Positions 4,900 through 51,671 of a stretch of DNA of 52,217 bases are shown piece by piece (the first letter of the stretch is position 1; every line of letters starts with the position of its first letter). Origin of the DNA: a virus. The stretch covers positions 1 through 52,217 of the IMG/VR virus record IMGVR_UViG_3300028400_000009. One strand, written 5' to 3'. Under the pieces are notes generated by a model, which was given only the letters and a program-made list of their open reading frames with translations, was not told the origin of the DNA and did no database searches. The translations under genes and the position numbers were made by a program.

Positions 4900-4991
4900 T
4901 GGTCAAACTAGCGCTATGTGTGGGTACGATGGCACTGACTACAAGATAGTTACCTATACGACCCATGCGACTTAATTCAGAGAACATTAAT

Positions 4992-5168
4992 ATGGATTTA
5001 AAATCATACATAGCAGAAAACTTCACCAGTCAGCAAGAATTTGCTGACTGGTTAGGGGTCACAAAGCAGCAGGTGTCAAAATGGCTACATACAATGAATG
5101 TGATCGTAGAGGACAATAAATTAAAGTCTAAACGAACACTACGGTCATTGCCCGATAGGTCTGGCTAA
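4992..5168 (+). CDS. Small helix-turn-helix DNA-binding protein (Cro/XRE-like)
   Basis: 58 residues from the ATG at 4992; an in-frame ATG at 4965 lacks a ribosome-binding site. SQQEFADWLGVTKQQVSKWL (residues 14-33) is a textbook helix-turn-helix with the QQ.S.W recognition helix. The C-terminus is short and basic. A phage regulator that may bind one of the nearby operators; target unknown. Confidence 0.75.
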   Translation: MDLKSYIAENFTSQQEFADWLGVTKQQVSKWLHTMNVIVEDNKLKSKRTLRSLPDRSG

Positions 5169-5497: not shown

Positions 5498-6598
5498 ATG
5501 ACAGAAGATAACACAGTATTGAAAACATTGAAAGTCAGAGTTAAAGATAATCGCAAGAATATCCTTAACCGTATGGCGTTCGATATTAATCAAGTGTGGA
5601 ATAAAGCCAACGAGATAACATCAGAAGAATGCTATGAGCCTATTCCAGAAGTCGGTTATGTTTTCAATAACATTTCAGCCTTCGATATTCAAAAACGAAT
5701 AAAAGGTATCCGTAAAGAACGAGATATGATTATTGGTGCAGGCTCAGCACAAAAAATAATTGCTATCCATGCTAAAGCCAGAAAACAATTTGAAAAAGTA
5801 AAACTTAAATGGCGTACCAGTGGTGGTAGTCGAAAGTCATTAGGTTTTGTACCGTTTAAATCAGGTGCTATTAAGTGGGTGAACGGTCAAATTAGATTCT
5901 GTGGTTATTATTTTAAGGTATGGGATAGCTACGGATTGTCAAAATATGACTTTAGGTCTGGCTCATTCTCACAAGATGCGCGTGGTCGCTGGTATCTTTC
6001 TATTGTTGTTAAAGTTCAGCAGGAAAAATCAAAAGGTACAGGTCAAATAGGCATTGATTTAGGGCTTAAAACAACGGCTGTATGTTCAGATGGTACGACT
6101 TTAGAGCGCAAACAATATTATAGAAATATGGAAAGCAAACTGGCTATGGCGCAACGCGCCAATAAGAAAAAGCAAGTTAAGAATATACACGCAAAAATTA
6201 AGAATCGTAGAGCTGATACAAATCATAAATTCAGCACAAAATTAGTAAAAGAAAACTCATTGATTGTAGTTGGTAATGTATCTAGCTCTAAATTAGCTAA
6301 AACTAAAATGGCTAAATCTGTACTAGATGCTGGCTGGTATCAATTAAAAAGTATGCTTGATTATAAATCCAAAGGGATGCAAGTATGCTATGTGGAAGTC
6401 AATGAAGCGTACACTACCCAGGCTTGTTCGTGTTGCGGCTGTATTAGCAGCAATAGTCCGAAAGGTATGGATTCGCTTGGAATAAGAGAATGGACTTGTG
6501 CAGAGTGTGGCACAAAGCATGATAGAGATATTAATGCGGCTGAGAACATTCTCCGTCTGGGGCATCAGACGCTCGCGGGAGGAATCCCCCGCTTTTAA
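5498..6598 (+). CDS. tnpB: TnpB-type RNA-guided nuclease (IS605 OrfB)
   Basis: 366 residues. RuvC-I motif GIDLGLKTT carries Asp187; the zinc ribbon is CSCC (310-313) / CAEC (334-337); the RuvC-III motif HDRDINAAENI carries Asp344. The usual RuvC-II segment reads IVVGNVSSSK, with Gly where most TnpB proteins have the catalytic Glu; a Glu is present in VNEAYTTQ (303), a position used by TnpB groups with a rearranged active site. So it may still cut. TnpB cleaves DNA guided by an RNA from the element's right end. A TATAAT at 5483-5488 (TTGATT 16 bases upstream) puts the transcript start almost at the ATG. Full length, no frameshift. Confidence 0.9.
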   Translation: MTEDNTVLKTLKVRVKDNRKNILNRMAFDINQVWNKANEITSEECYEPIPEVGYVFNNISAFDIQKRIKGIRKERDMIIGAGSAQKIIAIHAKARKQFEKVKLKWRTSGGSRKSLGFVPFKSGAIKWVNGQIRFCGYYFKVWDSYGLSKYDFRSGSFSQDARGRWYLSIVVKVQQEKSKGTGQIGIDLGLKTTAVCSDGTTLERKQYYRNMESKLAMAQRANKKKQVKNIHAKIKNRRADTNHKFSTKLVKENSLIVVGNVSSSKLAKTKMAKSVLDAGWYQLKSMLDYKSKGMQVCYVEVNEAYTTQACSCCGCISSNSPKGMDSLGIREWTCAECGTKHDRDINAAENILRLGHQTLAGGIPRF

Positions 6599-9604: not shown

Positions 9605-9622
9605 ATATCCATTTTGGGGTAT
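9605..9622 (-). promoter_or_regulatory. 18-bp palindromic operator before the 9584 gene
   Basis: ATATCCATTTTGGGGTAT, one of eight related sites (see findings). On the minus strand it runs into GGATATACTGTGG, where TATACT can serve as a -10 box for the gene starting at 9584. The bases 9623-9760 hold no gene. Confidence 0.55.
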
Positions 9623-11129: not shown

Positions 11130-11398
11130 TTGCTAGTTCTTGCTTTATCAAGATATGGCTTCCTACATTCCTTATAAGCTTCTATGAACTCGGAGCTTTT
11201 TGGAATATCCTCGCCTTTGCAATATTTGGCGATATAAAAACTATCAAAGTCAAGCCCTACAATCATACAGGCTTGATATGCTGATTCTACAATATCTCTA
11301 TTCTTGTGGTACTTTTGAGCTACGGCATTTATTTTCATGTATGGTATTTCTGCCAGCTCAACACCATCTAATATTTTTATACTTCTTGCATCGTACAT
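11126..11398 (-). CDS. Hypothetical protein
   Basis: 90 residues, not recognised. Helical, with AVAQKYHKNRDIVESAYQA in a helix-turn-helix-like arrangement and a central acidic stretch LDFDSFYIAKY. First gene of the leftward group that ends with the lipoprotein at 6613. Start preceded by AGGAAAA. Confidence 0.65.
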   Translation of the reverse strand: MYDARSIKILDGVELAEIPYMKINAVAQKYHKNRDIVESAYQACMIVGLDFDSFYIAKYCKGEDIPKSSEFIEAYKECRKPYLDKARTSK

Positions 11399-11477
11399 TT
11401 TATTTTCCTGTTTATTTTAGACATTACTTCTCTGGTTTATCCCTTGAACTACTAGCAATAGATTGTTTCTAATTTCC

Positions 11478-11573
11478 TTATGCCTAATACTCTTGCCCTT
11501 AGAGCATAATCCCTGCCAGACTTAGCCCTCTGGCATTTAACTGTTACGGCTTACGTGGGTTTTCACAGTTAAA
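11478..11573. other. Three consecutive perfect hairpins
   Basis: Stem 1 TTATGC (11478-11483) / GCATAA (11504-11509); stem 2 TGCCAGA (11514-11520) / TCTGGCA (11529-11535); stem 3 TTTAACTGT (11536-11544) / ACAGTTAAA (11565-11573). They are nearly back to back, which points to a structured RNA. A T5 run follows at 11583. No reading frame with a start lies here. The 11399-11830 gap otherwise holds nothing I can name. Confidence 0.5.
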
Positions 11574-11836
11574 CTATTCGGACTTTTTAAAAATTTCAAG
11601 GTCTAGGTTGCACCACTGCATTGCCTAGTAGTTTGTTTGTTTCACTATTTAAAACTTTAATAATCAGAAGCTTGTATGAATTAACTGTAAGCAAAAATGA
11701 ATTAAAATGTTTTATTAATCTGTTAGCCGTGATGCCAATTAACGCGCAGATAAGTACGCCATCGAGTAGTTAGCTCATTGATGGATTAGTTTTAGCGAAT
11801 TGAATTTGCCTGAATCGGCTGTTTTTAGATTGATTA

Positions 11837-11865
11837 TTGCGTTTAGGGATAAACTGAATTATAAT
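11837..11865 (+). promoter_or_regulatory. Promoter of small RNA 1
   Basis: TTGCGT (11837-11842), 17 bases, TATAAT (11860-11865). The same layout (TTGCTT-17-TATAAT) stands at 49629-49657 before a related RNA. Expected transcript start near 11872. Confidence 0.65.
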
Positions 11866-11871
11866 CTCTCT

Positions 11872-11980
11872 AACTTGTGCTGTCGCTAAACTTACACAAG
11901 ATTTATTTGATAAGTATAGTCTCTATCTCCTATAACGTCAAATAGCATTAAAGCCCGTCATTAACCTGATGGGCTTTTTT
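11872..11980 (+). ncRNA. Putative phage small RNA 1
   Basis: About 109 bases between a promoter and a strong terminator, with no reading frame. Hairpin a: CTTGTG (11874-11879) / CACAAG (11895-11900). Hairpin b: TTTGA and TATAG (11906-11919) paired with CTATA and TCAAA (11930-11942). Hairpin c is the terminator. Small RNA 2 at 49664 shares promoter spacing, the leader TCTAACTTGTG, hairpin a with CACAAGATTT, and the same three-hairpin order with different bases in hairpin b. Target unknown. Confidence 0.65.
11950..11980 (+). terminator. Intrinsic terminator of small RNA 1
   Basis: Eleven-pair stem AAAGCCCGTCA / TGATGGGCTTT (one G-T pair) with loop TTAACC and a T6 run ending at 11980. Confidence 0.85.
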
Positions 11981-11999: not shown

Positions 12000-12017
12000 A
12001 TACCTCTAAGTGGGTAT
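12000..12017. promoter_or_regulatory. 18-bp operator site
   Basis: ATACCTCTAAGTGGGTAT, a member of the recurring palindrome family. No gene occupies 12018-12190; weak hairpins only. Confidence 0.45.
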
Positions 12018-12190: not shown

Positions 12191-12406
12191 TTAGGCTTGG
12201 ACTTGCACGTTCTCGGCTAATAACTCATTAAAAAATAGCGTGGTTATTGTTGCTGTTTTTGCATTTTTGAATTGATTTACTTTTTGCCTGCCATTTTTTA
12301 TGCCGTATTTATTTTCTAGGAATAATGCAAGCTGGTTGTAGTTTTCTGTTTTTGTCTGAGTAAGCATAAAATCTAGTATTTCTTCGTTTGAAATTATTTT
12401 GCTCAT
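12191..12406 (-). CDS. Small protein, possibly helix-turn-helix regulator
   Basis: 71 residues. NYNQLALFLENKYGIKNGRQ could be the start of a helix-turn-helix, followed by VNQFKNAKTATITTLFFNEL. Divergent from the gene at 12486 with a consensus promoter between them; that position suits a local regulator. No firm family. Confidence 0.6.
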   Translation of the reverse strand: MSKIISNEEILDFMLTQTKTENYNQLALFLENKYGIKNGRQKVNQFKNAKTATITTLFFNELLAENVQVQA

Positions 12407-19606: not shown

Positions 19607-19624
19607 ATACCCACTTTGGGATAT
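19607..19624. promoter_or_regulatory. 18-bp palindromic operator
   Basis: ATACCCACTTTGGGATAT. On the minus strand GGGTATATTAATC could supply a -10; on the plus strand it lies 56 bases before the gene at 19680. Confidence 0.55.
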
Positions 19625-23411: not shown

Positions 23412-24206
23412 CTATATAGCAACTTTTAAATCGCCGCCTGTGTGATAAATTGATTTATTTGGTATAAGTCCAGCGTTAATTGCATCTGCATTTGAAGCGT
23501 ATTCAGGGATACCAGTGCCATTGCCAACTGATAATATAATATTGCCAGACAAATCAGATGGTAATCCAGTTACATTTGCGCCGATAATTGTATTATTACT
23601 CCCCGTTACTATGCCTCTCCCTGTGTTACATCCGTATATAGTGTTCGCATCACCAGTTGTGATGTCGTATCCAGCCGCATAACCATTCGCTGTCCAGTTA
23701 CTGCCCGTTGTGTTCAAGTATCCAGCGTACATGCCATTCGCTGTCCAGTTACTGCCCGTTGTGTTCAAGTATCCAGCTCTATTACCATTCGCTGTCCAGT
23801 TATTGCCCGTTGTGTTCGAGTATCCAGCCGCATAACCATTCGCTATCCAGTTATTGCCCGTTGTGTTCGAGTATCCAGCGTACATGCCATTCGCTGTCCA
23901 GTTACTGCCCGTTGTGTTCGAGTATCCAGCGTACATGCCATTCGCTGTCCAGTTACTGCCCGTTGTGTTCGAGAATGCAGATTCTTTGCCGACTCGTGTA
24001 TTACTACTTTTTGCTTCTATTTGTGGGTCAACGTATGCCGCAACGCTACCAGCATTAGTTACCGCAGCAGCTTGGTTTAAGAATTTCATTACATTAACAC
24101 TAGCATTAATGATGTTAAGCCACTTCTGATACCACGTTTTATCTTCGCATGTTATTTTATTTGTCTGTAACGCTGTTTCTAAGTCATCAATTGGATTTGT
24201 TGCCAT
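23412..24206 (-). CDS. Fibre-like protein with 17-residue repeats
   Basis: 264 residues. Helical head (ALQTNKITCEDKTWYQKWLN), then about six copies of a 17-residue repeat (core NTTGSNWTANGMYAGYS), then single repeats with GSNNTIIGANVTG and a short end. Repeats of AGY-NTTG-N--NG type form beta-rolls in tail fibres and trimeric adhesins. Probably a receptor-binding or decoration fibre. Repeat number may vary between relatives. Confidence 0.75.
   Translation of the reverse strand: MATNPIDDLETALQTNKITCEDKTWYQKWLNIINASVNVMKFLNQAAAVTNAGSVAAYVDPQIEAKSSNTRVGKESAFSNTTGSNWTANGMYAGYSNTTGSNWTANGMYAGYSNTTGNNWIANGYAAGYSNTTGNNWTANGNRAGYLNTTGSNWTANGMYAGYLNTTGSNWTANGYAAGYDITTGDANTIYGCNTGRGIVTGSNNTIIGANVTGLPSDLSGNIILSVGNGTGIPEYASNADAINAGLIPNKSIYHTGGDLKVAI
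23670..23975. repeat. 51-bp tandem repeat (about six copies)
   Basis: Nearly identical 51-base units on the plus strand (unit contains GCCATTCGCTGTCCAGTTAC) encode the 17-residue protein repeats. The bases agree more than the protein would need, so copies arose recently or are kept alike by recombination. Confidence 0.9.
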
Positions 24207-47239: not shown

Positions 47240-48066
47240 TACGCCACCTCTCTATGGTATTTGCCTTCATAAATTTTTGCGAAATTGTTAGGTCTTGATA
47301 GCCATTCAAGATCAGGCAAGAAAGGTGGTTTATCATCTGTACCCTCTGTTTTACCTGTCAGAAATCTTGATTCTGATATGTAAGTGAAATACTTTTCCCA
47401 ACTCTCCAATGATGGCAAATCTTCAATCCACCGTTGTTTTATGTATCCCTTCCTTGTTGCTGTTAGCTTTCTTAGCTCTGGATTGTTTGGCAAGATAGAG
47501 TGATATAAAGATATTATTCTTTTGAATGGAACTTGAGTTTTTTGTTTAGTTTTTGTTTTAACTTCAACATCTACATCACCATGTAGATTATCATTAGTAG
47601 TATTATTATATATAGTAGTATTATATGTCGGATTTATTTCCGAGTTATTTTCGGATTTATTTCCGAGTTTTGTCGGATTTATTTCCGAGTTCGGATTTAT
47701 TTCCGACATAGTAGCCTCACTTAATTCGGATTTATTTCCGACATAGTAGCTTTTCCCCTTTTCGGTTAGTTTCATACAGTCCTTTTTCCCTACTTTTATA
47801 TGCTTTATAACGCCTAATTTATCCAGCGCTTTTAGATGCCTGTATATTGTGTCTGGCTTTAACCCTAATATTGGAAGTTGTTCAGATATTTTTTGCCTTG
47901 CGACCCAGTAGTAAATATCGTTATCTACTATAATTGCCTCAGCCCATGTGTTTGCATGGGCTAATAAGTCAAAGATTATAGCTTGATTTATATTTGTTAT
48001 GCCTAGACGTAAGCATTCACGCTGACCAACGTATAAAGTAAATTTGAAGTTATTATGCTGTGACAT
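47239..48066 (-). CDS. O-like replication initiator
   Basis: 275 residues. A winged-helix start (NFKFTLYVGQRECLRLGITN, then QKISEQLPILGLKPDTIYRH), a repetitive middle (SEINP and GNKSE blocks), then a basic domain for helicase contact (TRKGYIKQRWIEDLPSLESW). In lambda, O binds iterons inside its own gene and recruits the helicase. The same plan is visible here: the iterons produce the amino-acid repeats. Read from the structured leader at 48067-48231, AAAGGGGC before ATG. Confidence 0.85.
   Translation of the reverse strand: MSQHNNFKFTLYVGQRECLRLGITNINQAIIFDLLAHANTWAEAIIVDNDIYYWVARQKISEQLPILGLKPDTIYRHLKALDKLGVIKHIKVGKKDCMKLTEKGKSYYVGNKSELSEATMSEINPNSEINPTKLGNKSENNSEINPTYNTTIYNNTTNDNLHGDVDVEVKTKTKQKTQVPFKRIISLYHSILPNNPELRKLTATRKGYIKQRWIEDLPSLESWEKYFTYISESRFLTGKTEGTDDKPPFLPDLEWLSRPNNFAKIYEGKYHREVA
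47587..47741. other. Probable replication origin: five iterons and an AT-rich tract
   Basis: TCGGATTTATTTCCGA, a 16-bp imperfect palindrome, occurs at 47628, 47651, 47673, 47691 and 47726. Beside them 47587-47627 is almost pure A/T with TATTATTATATATAG, a natural unwinding element. Iterons next to an AT-rich element inside an initiator gene is the lambda-type origin. Confidence 0.85.
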
Positions 48067-48378: not shown

Positions 48379-49059
48379 CTATTTTTTTATATACTTCTGC
48401 ATCCTAGCGTCAGCTTCATTGTTGATCCTTTCTTCGTCATACTCATAGCCAACCCAGTTATCAACTCCATTGGCTTCTAATTCAGACAGCTCAATATCAC
48501 TCTTCAATAGTCTTTTGAGTTCTGTGTATCCAATACTAACCTTTCCATCTGATTGAGATTTTAATAAACTCAATGCGTTTCTAGCTTTGCTAATTGATTC
48601 GTTTATTGAATCTAGCTCTTTCTTTGCATTAAGACATTTACGCTCCCATGCCTTTACTTCAGCATCAAAATCATTAATTTTTGCTTCGTGGGCTTTAATT
48701 TCACTTTCTAGTCCTATATTCTTCTCATTCAGTGTAGCGTTCAATGCCGATAATTTAGCTATGTGTTCTTGCAGTGGCTTAATCTGCAAGAACTCTACTG
48801 GTTCATCATGTAGTAAACGATTCTCCACCATGACTACAATAGATGCCTGTGAGTCGTTGATTATATCTATGACCTCCTGAGCTTCCACGCATGTGTGTCT
48901 TGTTGGTGTTCCTTGGTTTCCTACCATGCACTCAGTACACCACTGAGCACCCTCAAATTCATCAGCATATTTCGGTGTTAATTTAATCTCACTGAAATCA
49001 TCCGATACTTTTCTTATTATTACGCATGGGTTGTTCATGTAGTATTTTACGTTTTTCAT
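48379..49059 (-). CDS. Coiled-coil protein with a Cys cluster
   Basis: 226 residues. Start NPCVIIRKVSDDFSEIKL, Cys cluster WCTECMVGNQGTPTRHTC (about 41-58), an 80-residue coiled coil (ALNATLNEKNIGLESEIKAH, EVKAWERKCLNAKKELDS), helical end. No family; early gene with its own repressed promoter. Could be a recombination or defence-related factor. Confidence 0.7.
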   Translation of the reverse strand: MKNVKYYMNNPCVIIRKVSDDFSEIKLTPKYADEFEGAQWCTECMVGNQGTPTRHTCVEAQEVIDIINDSQASIVVMVENRLLHDEPVEFLQIKPLQEHIAKLSALNATLNEKNIGLESEIKAHEAKINDFDAEVKAWERKCLNAKKELDSINESISKARNALSLLKSQSDGKVSIGYTELKRLLKSDIELSELEANGVDNWVGYEYDEERINNEADARMQKYIKK

Positions 49060-49111
49060 AGTTCACCTCATTAATTTAACCCCACTATACCAGCCAACCA
49101 CGTTTTACTGT

Positions 49112-49129
49112 ATACCCATTAAGGGGTAG
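49112..49129 (-). promoter_or_regulatory. 18-bp operator and promoter before the 49059 gene
   Basis: ATACCCATTAAGGGGTAG; on the minus strand it reads into GGGTATACAGT, giving a TATACA -10 right after the operator. Ribosome-binding site GAGGTGA follows before ATG. Confidence 0.6.
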
Positions 49130-49628
49130 GGTGGTTGTTATTTGCTCTCCTGTTTGTTTAGACAATAGCAAGGCATTAGAGGGGTTTAAGTGGTTTCCCA
49201 AGAAAACTAATCCTCTGTTTCTGTTATTTAATATGCGTGTATCAATACCAACCAATATATCAGGCTTCGTTATTTGTGTGCAAAACTTTCATTATTGCAT
49301 CGGGAACTGTACATCTAACCGTTTATCAACCATGTTCTTTTTTGCTGGCTCTCTAAAGTTTGCATGAATTAACTTAAACTTTAGCAGTCAAAAAATTATA
49401 CGAATTTAGGTTGATGGTGTATTACCACTTTTAAGTACCTGTTTTGTTCCGCAGAATTGCATAGATTAGCGGACGCTCCCCCTCTAGTCATTGTCTATGC
49501 GCGACTGGAACGGGTTGGATATTGTCTGCACTTGATCTCGCTCAAGCCGTTTTATTAATAGTTTAAGTCACTACTCGACAGGCGTAGGCGGTATTGAATG
49601 CTTGATTTAAGCAGATTTAGAAGATTAT
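49130..49628. other. Gap without a confident gene
   Basis: About 500 bases. On the minus strand, frame pieces such as NFREPAKKNMVDKRLDVQFP and ILVGIDTRILNNRNRGLVF read like protein but are split by stops, so a decayed gene is possible. Structure: GCATAG (49479-49484) / CTATGC (49495-49500 region) and CTTGA/TCAAG at about 49530-49546, both weak. The plus frame at 49131-49367 has no start signal and an odd composition. Confidence 0.35.
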
Positions 49629-49657
49629 TTGCTTTTTGATTCAGCTTGAAATATAAT
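49629..49657 (+). promoter_or_regulatory. Promoter of small RNA 2
   Basis: TTGCTT (49629-49634), 17 bases, TATAAT (49652-49657). Copy of the small RNA 1 promoter layout. Confidence 0.65.
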
Positions 49658-49663
49658 CTTTCT

Positions 49664-49777
49664 AACTTGTGGTGACCGTCTAAAGCAACACAAGATTTTG
49701 ACTAGTATACCTAACCTGTTTTGTATTAGTCAATATTTGCATAATCAAAGCCCCTTATTCACGTTTGGGGCTTTTTT
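49664..49777 (+). ncRNA. Putative phage small RNA 2
   Basis: About 114 bases with no reading frame. Hairpin a CTTGTG (49666-49671) / CACAAG (49689-49694). Hairpin b TTGACTA (49698-49704) / TAGTCAA (49727-49733), extended by ATAC/GTAT. Terminator hairpin AAAGCCCC (49747-49754) / GGGGCTTT (49767-49774) with T6. Shares leader, stem a and order with small RNA 1; hairpin b differs in bases but both fold. It lies just before the Tad2-like gene. Confidence 0.65.
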
Positions 49778-49787
49778 GTGGATGTGG

Positions 49788-49793
49788 TATAAT
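49788..49793 (+). promoter_or_regulatory. -10 box for the Tad2-like gene
   Basis: TATAAT at 49788-49793; the -35 (TTGGGG, 17 bases upstream) is inside the preceding terminator. Promoter is weak or needs help. Confidence 0.5.
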
Positions 49794-49823: not shown

Positions 49824-50087
49824 ATGGATTTTGGAAAAGCGCTAGAAAATATAAAAGCAGGAATGAAGATGCAACGCGAAGGATGGAACGGGAAAGGCAT
49901 GTTTATCTTTCTTGTGCCAGGGTCAACTTTTAAAGTTAATCGCAAGCCGCTTCTTGGAATCTATCCAGAAGGCACTGAAATTAACTATCGCGGGCATATC
50001 GACATGAAAACGGCTGATGATATGGTTGTTCCGTGGCTTGCATCACAGACAGATATTCTTGCTGATGATTGGAAAGTGGTTGAATAA
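49824..50087 (+). CDS. Tad2-like protein (DUF2829), probable anti-Thoeris
   Basis: 87 residues, complete. DFGKALENIKAGMKMQREGW, NGKGMFIFLVPGSTF, IDMKTADDMVVPWLASQTDI and LADDW are the hallmarks of DUF2829 (PF11195). Members of this family include Tad2 of phage SPO1, which tightly binds the gcADPR signal made by Thoeris. Ribosome-binding site AAGGAG. Function inferred by family; ligand residues not checked. Confidence 0.88.
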   Translation: MDFGKALENIKAGMKMQREGWNGKGMFIFLVPGSTFKVNRKPLLGIYPEGTEINYRGHIDMKTADDMVVPWLASQTDILADDWKVVE

Positions 50088-50643: not shown

Positions 50644-50661
50644 ATACCCACTATTGGGTAT
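50644..50661. promoter_or_regulatory. 18-bp operator with -10 box
   Basis: ATACCCACTATTGGGTAT, a nearly perfect palindrome, continues as ACTGTG, so TATACT (50659-50664) can be a -10 for the gene at 50685. Located between two divergent genes. Confidence 0.65.
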
Positions 50662-50891: not shown

Positions 50892-51110
50892 GTTACTTAT
50901 GCTCAATCGGCTTAGTTTGCACATTGGGTAATGAGGTAGTGCTACCCCTAAGCTTTACGCTACTAATGCAAGACTTGTGAAAGCCTGTGCATCATTAGAA
51001 GCTTGACCGTAAGTTTCATTGCCATTTCAAGCAATATTAACTTTAGTTGCTGAGTAGCTGATGACTTCTACTCATGCGCTCATTATAACATCTATTAAAA
51101 CCAATTTCAC
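50892..51110. other. Structured gap without gene
   Basis: About 220 bases. Contains GGTAGTGCTACC, CTAATG...CATTAG and AAGCTT pairs (50950-51004), so an RNA may form. No reading frame with a start is supported. Confidence 0.35.
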
Positions 51111-51128
51111 ATACCCACTATGGGGTAT
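51111..51128. promoter_or_regulatory. 18-bp operator
   Basis: ATACCCACTATGGGGTAT, close to a perfect palindrome, 58 bases before the 51186 gene. The -10 could be TATTTT on the plus strand. Confidence 0.6.
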
Positions 51129-51515: not shown

Positions 51516-51671
51516 CGGTAGAAAACATCGGTAAATAGCTCAGTATGTCGGTTAACCGAGCAAAACAGAGTTAACCGAGCAAATTCTACCGAGCTACATG
51601 GTAATTTCTACCGACCAAATATACCCACAAAGGGGTATTTACCGATTATCAGAATCTCGGTAGTATCGGTT
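51515..51671. repeat. Ten TCGGTW half-sites in both orientations
   Basis: TCGGTA/T at 51515, 51528, 51548, 51657, 51666 and WACCGA at 51554, 51573, 51587, 51609, 51640. TCGGTTAACCGA (51548-51559) is a perfect 12-bp palindrome. The 18-bp operator ATACCCACAAAGGGGTAT is at 51621-51638. Dense sites suggest a multi-site protein assembly before the gene at 51698. Confidence 0.7.

Follow-up and report, generated by a model that had tools for sequence, protein, structure and literature searches.

A duplicated cassette of predicted face-to-face promoters and a shared hairpin at the heads of two leftward gene blocks in an uncultured phage

What do two similar units of promoter, hairpins and terminator do when they lie 38 kb apart in one viral genome? 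An earlier note had read them, on one strand, as paralogous small RNA genes with diverged loops, each with a target of its own or acting as a sponge for a host RNA. We analysed the whole virus record in which they occur (52,217 bases, here called the window; ~34–43% G+C), which encodes a terminase, a portal, a DnaB-type helicase, an O-like replication protein and an endolysin. The best TerL matches reach 57–64% identity in viral contigs and 44–46% in named genomes, and the best named phage is Pseudomonas phage KPP23 at 43% identity. Searches of viral contigs with the portal or TerL singly found no close phage relative.

Several other genes and repeats of the window deserve mention. A full-length TnpB-type protein is encoded at 5498–6598, and no TnpA was noticed; its identity is 66% to copies found in genomes from one order and 67% to a copy on a Methylobacter plasmid, a resemblance that is weak evidence as a pointer to the host. 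By eye, an apparent TnpB N-terminal remnant lies on the minus strand at about 10060–9945, inside the exonuclease/lysis block. The leftward gene at 48379–49059 matches the T7 gp5.9 RecBCD inhibitor (PF25708) in its C-terminal part, and there are genes for a Mu Gam-like end protection protein (364–864) and a NinB/Orf-like mediator (1080–1577). Five repeats of the TCGGATTTATTTCCGA type within the O-like replication gene (47625–47744) are possible replication-origin iterons, and tandem 51-base repeats (23602–24009) lie in the leftward ORF 23412–24206, where the structural block ends.

The two copies are true paralogues. They share 71% identity over 130 bases (E 3.9e-9), comparison of the intergenic tracts alone gave E 2e-10, and no third copy was found anywhere in the window. 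Promoter hexamers, leader, first stem, second stem and terminator all sit where the earlier note had placed them (Table 1). The genes to the left of both copies are leftward, and base skew turns there; the leftward block from copy 1 comprises exonuclease and lysis genes and that from copy 2 runs from replication to structural genes. Conservation is judged from a single pair of sequences because no relatives were found: the module is known from these two copies in one genome, and transcription of both its strands is a prediction.

On the rightward strand, each copy opens with a site, P+, that has a perfect −10 and only three of six matches in the −35. Shuffles of the local sequence reached its score in 155 of 5,000 trials for copy 1 and 96 of 5,000 for copy 2; as promoter predictions these sites are weak. 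The predicted rightward RNA folds better than its dinucleotide shuffles (copy 1, z −4.5, 0/200 as good; copy 2, z −3.3, 3/200), and so does the middle stem alone (z −2.7, 5/200, and z −3.7, 1/200, respectively). The terminator points rightward, and a rightward start is therefore expected nearby. No reading frame is conserved between the copies; the note had seen none in either. Short ORFs of 22–66 aa do overlap both RNAs but occupy non-matching places in the two copies, and we rejected a hidden peptide. An Rfam scan of the window, one of the checks proposed with the note, returned no match above the gathering threshold. Below it, copy 1 scored 27.3 of 79 bits for RsaE and 26.5 of 50 bits for RF02278, and copy 2 at best 21.2 of 54 bits for PyrR. 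Short, terminated transcripts from both copies are plausible in view of the conserved −10 and start, hairpin arms and terminator; what the one-strand reading had missed is a promoter on the opposite strand.

This predicted promoter, P−, is strong and lies inside the middle stem of each copy. We scored all positions of the two strands of the window with a sigma-70 matrix built from E. coli frequencies, which may not be those of the host. Six sites in the window score at least as high as the weaker P−, whereas 200 shuffles of the whole window gave 1.9 such sites on average, and shuffling of the local stretch reached the P− score in 3 of 5,000 trials for copy 1 and 4 of 5,000 for copy 2. Because P− was found inside it, the middle stem doubles as a promoter body. 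As previously described, the stem pairs in each copy, though with bases that differ in part between the two; we found only one-sided changes and newly formed pairs in it, and no double-sided compensatory change. The presence of P− thus makes each copy a pair of predicted face-to-face promoters, and the rightward terminator falls 8–13 bp past the −35 element of P−. The leftward transcripts are predicted to begin with long leaders that contain no gene. A structured long RNA to the left of the copies was rejected (z −0.2 to −0.7 with the module excluded).

Table 1. Positions of the predicted elements of the two copies and of neighbouring features in the window.
Feature	Copy	Position	Strand	Details
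P+	1	11837..11865	+	TTGCGT-17-TATAAT; predicted start 11872; window rank 66
P+	2	49629..49657	+	TTGCTT-17-TATAAT; predicted start 49664; window rank 40
Predicted short RNA	1	11872..11980	+	109 nt, three hairpins
Predicted short RNA	2	49664..49777	+	114 nt, three hairpins
Intrinsic terminator	1	11950..11980	+	T6 on + strand only
Intrinsic terminator	2	49747..49777	+	T6 on + strand only
P−	1	11941–11913	−	TTGACG-17-TATACT; predicted start 11906; window rank 4
P−	2	49733–49704	−	TTGACT-18-TATACT; predicted start 49697; window rank 6
Predicted leftward leader	1	11399..11906	−	508 nt, without gene
Predicted leftward leader	2	49060..49697	−	638 nt, without gene
IR1	1	11874..11900	both	CTTGTG-15-CACAAG, between predicted starts
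IR1	2	49666..49694	both	CTTGTG-17-CACAAG, between predicted starts
IR2	1	11826..11872	−	TTAGA..GATTAT/ATAATC..TCTAA; overlaps P+; second hairpin of leftward transcript
IR2	2	49618..49664	−	overlaps P+; second hairpin of leftward transcript
ATACCCACTNTGGGGTAT-type sites		9605–9622, 12000–12017, 19607–19624, 49112–49129, 50644–50661, 51111–51128, 51621–51638		
Tad2-like anti-Thoeris gene (PF11195)		49824–50087	+	directly right of copy 2

To compare the copies, we cut their alignment into segments and counted identical bases in each. The tract from the P+ −10 to the start is identical at 13 of 14 positions, and the IR1 left arm (6/6) and right arm plus AT (8/8) match throughout, with 9/17 in the loop between them. 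P− retains its −10 (6/6) and most of its −35 (5/6) around a diverged spacer (5/18). Its hexamers match in 11 of 12 columns versus 13 of 41 elsewhere in that stretch (Fisher p 0.0005), a value that is suggestive because the segment borders were chosen after the promoter had been seen. The terminator arms agree at 7/8 and 14/15 positions and the terminator loop at 7/12, the P+ spacer at 10/20 and the 60 bases upstream at 28/61. Left arms of IR2 share 8 of 14 ungapped positions, yet both pair with their own right arms. The conserved blocks coincide with the predicted functional elements, and loops and spacers have diverged.

IR1 lies between the two predicted starts and would therefore form the 5′ hairpin of both opposing transcripts; CTTGTG/CACAAG palindromes of this kind occur twice in the window, in the two copies only. 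We consider a DNA operator at IR1 improbable, because the arms are 15 bases apart in one copy and 17 in the other, which speaks against a single dimer site. The predicted starts of P+ and P− are 34 bp apart in copy 1 and 33 bp in copy 2, and the −10 to −10 distance is kept (47 and 46 bp) despite two extra bases in the loop and three fewer in the right flank. As adjacent hairpins of the leftward RNA, IR1 and IR2 gave z −4.25 (0/200) for copy 1 and z −2.0 (6/200) for copy 2. The first ~35 nt of the rightward RNA are the exact complement of the first ~35 nt of the predicted leftward transcript. Predicted pairing gains were −40 and −45 kcal/mol for cognate RNAs and −15 and −15 kcal/mol for non-cognate RNAs, which is no proof of function because the strands are complementary by construction. 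Sequence elements, conservation pattern, geometry and folds are direct observations.

Our favoured reading, which we give an even chance of being right, is that P+ controls the leftward operons in cis, through interference, antisense pairing or both. P− would sit at the head of a gene block and start a leftward mRNA whose untranslated leader is long. The weaker P+ would fire rightward, cross P− fully and stop at the intrinsic terminator; through mutually exclusive polymerase occupancy or through collision, it would damp the leftward operon in cis or set its timing. Alternatively, or in addition, the short RNA may pair with the leftward mRNA through the hairpin loops, the divergence of which would prevent cross-reaction between the two copies; conserved arms and diverged loops fit such operon-specific pairing. 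We infer transcription of either strand, repression of P− by P+ and loop specificity, and we favour cis control because promoters so close could hardly both be occupied and because the rightward unit transcribes only the opposing promoter. Against cis control, the overlap is too distant to block translation directly, with 508 and 638 nt separating it from the first listed start codon downstream. Also counting against it are the poor −35 of P+, a 71-aa leftward ORF (12191–12406) to the right of copy 1 and, for the first leftward gene of copy 2, a possible nearer promoter at the operator-like repeat 49112–49129.

Each of the two devices invoked by cis control has precedents. P2-like phages have face-to-face promoters 40–60 bp apart (PMC7498355), and much work exists on how convergent phage promoters interfere with one another (PMC6593788). 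The module resembles the P2/186 switch, where transcriptional interference is known, in having predicted opposed promoters tens of bp apart with a shared element between them. It differs in its predicted starts, which are 33–34 bp apart rather than 40–60 bp (PMC7498355), and in being duplicated at two operons. Furthermore, both P2/186 promoters, lytic and lysogenic, drive protein genes, whereas the P+ RNA would end after 109–114 nt without a conserved ORF; and in place of direct-repeat Apl/Cox sites the module has, by inspection, one inverted repeat, CTTGTG/CACAAG, between the starts. Short cis-antisense RNAs are also known from phages, including P22 sar, lambda OOP and aQ (PMC12197685). Like the predicted rightward RNA, they are complementary to an operon transcript. 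In the module, however, the two predicted RNAs would overlap at their 5′ ends, within a leader that is long and untranslated, and the overlap covers neither a start codon nor coding sequence. RNA-IN and RNA-OUT of IS10 arise from opposed promoters and share a ~35-nt 5′ overlap; unlike IS10, the module has no transposase, and its overlap is far from the start codon. In a limited search of the open-access literature, we found no case of a duplicated cassette that combines face-to-face promoters with antisense RNA. What is unusual here is that one compact cassette joins both known devices, is duplicated at two operon heads and has a shared hairpin.

The two adjacent hairpins that follow straight after P− in both copies invite a different explanation, which we regard as less likely but still serious: the first ~80 nt of the leftward RNA (IR1 and IR2) may act as an antitermination leader that, like HK022 putL and putR, modifies RNA polymerase and allows read-through of terminators in both leftward operons. 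Antitermination by put needs no additional factor and works through the zinc-binding domain of the RNA polymerase β′ subunit. In HK022, two comparable two-stem RNAs of ~70 nt follow two early promoters, putL coming directly after PL (PMC9378689); our two paralogous elements of ~70–80 nt, just after predicted operon promoters, have the same layout. IR2 is retained in both copies, its left arm extending upstream of the P+ −35 box, and a leftward intrinsic terminator (42502–42484) lies within the copy 2 block. The copy 1 block, however, has no clear internal leftward terminator among those listed, and the copy 2 fold of IR1 and IR2 is marginal. Unlike put, the module also has a predicted promoter and a terminator that face the other way, and antitermination leaves the conserved rightward terminator and the middle stem unexplained. 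Nor do the put regions of HK022 show convincing sequence similarity: a very small blastn search, with both elements against the HK022 nun–cI and cro–cII gaps, gave matches no longer than 11 bases (E 0.015).

Trans-acting paralogous small RNAs, each with its own targets or sponging a host RNA, are in our estimate a poor prospect. Promoter, three hairpins and T6 terminator in both copies, diverged loops and the lack of a common ORF all suit that proposal, and the copy 1 middle loop, which is rich in C/U, pairs better with a single phage start region than most shuffles do (2 of 60 equalled it, uncorrected). But for the other three of the four loops, pairing with phage start regions did not exceed that of shuffled loops, no conserved single-stranded seed was found, and two of the six best promoters in the window would go unexplained. 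The claim of trans targets or a sponge is left unsupported here, and the 5′ end of the RNA instead complements a strong predicted leftward transcript.

It is very improbable that P− alone works, with the terminator insulating rightward genes and P+ a by-product of IR2 arms that hold a −10-like sequence: P− is indeed much stronger, and P+ has a poor −35 and sits within IR2, but the P+ −10 to start is among the best conserved blocks, and a rightward terminator without a nearby rightward start has no evident job.

Searches for relatives of the element left the two copies on their own. Pattern searches of viral contigs gave 13, 0 and 3 stretches, all 16 of which were judged to be chance matches, without the matching promoter and three-hairpin layout; one pattern run against genome contigs gave none. 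By blastn, 84 phage records showed short local matches, none covering 80% of the query, and plasmids showed no matches. The covariance search that had been proposed was made with two models, R3 (built from two sequences) and R2. Across the window, L019 and 80 TerL-relative loci, only the two copies fell below E 1; R3 also lists 11230–11352 of the window at E 1.8. In 25 of the 80 TerL relatives, searched as whole records, one weak match came up (E 0.08), and 369 genomes of one class yielded none with R3. Among 63 genomes of one order, R3 gave five matches (E 0.0007–0.046), which we judged from the alignments to be chance; they rest on A+T-rich stretches and the terminator, and IR1 pairs are broken or missing in most. 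The empty R3 results carry little weight because that model was built from two sequences. By eye, we saw no resemblance of the module to a CRISPR-repeat mimic or a TnpB guide RNA, and set both ideas aside.

The window contains further candidate regulatory features. The palindrome ATACCCACTNTGGGGTAT occurs with at most three mismatches at seven places, giving eight strand matches against 0.05 expected by chance; several sites adjoin gene or promoter starts, and one is just right of copy 1. It is probably the operator of a phage regulator, and a small HTH protein (4965–5168) is a candidate for its reader. One such palindrome abuts the −35 of a third short-RNA-like unit, unrelated to the two copies, on the minus strand at 51110–50880 (~190 nt). 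Here the promoter is GTGAAA-17-TATAAT with TG before the −10 (window rank 5), no gene is noted on the minus strand, and the terminator is CCGATTGAG/CTCAATCGG with ATTTTTT. The Tad2-like gene has its own promoter-like site just past the copy 2 terminator (−10 at 49788, window rank 20).

There is a slim chance that the cassette is a combined switch, in which the shared hairpin would open two opposing RNAs, its loop would serve as an operon-specific address, and the leftward RNA would at once be an antitermination leader that needs no protein and has no relation to HK022 put. On that reading the module would resemble plasmid incompatibility RNAs, in which arms are likewise fixed and loops diverged, and a single 110-bp cassette would govern a phage operon at initiation as well as at read-through. 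The locus also offers a caution: a reading of promoter, hairpin and terminator on one strand may mask a stronger promoter on the other. With stems and promoters fixed and loops changed, the copy pair is a natural experiment on interference versus antisense pairing. If cis control of the leftward operons is right, an uncultured phage would coordinate two distant gene blocks through copies of one cassette of opposed promoters and a shared hairpin.
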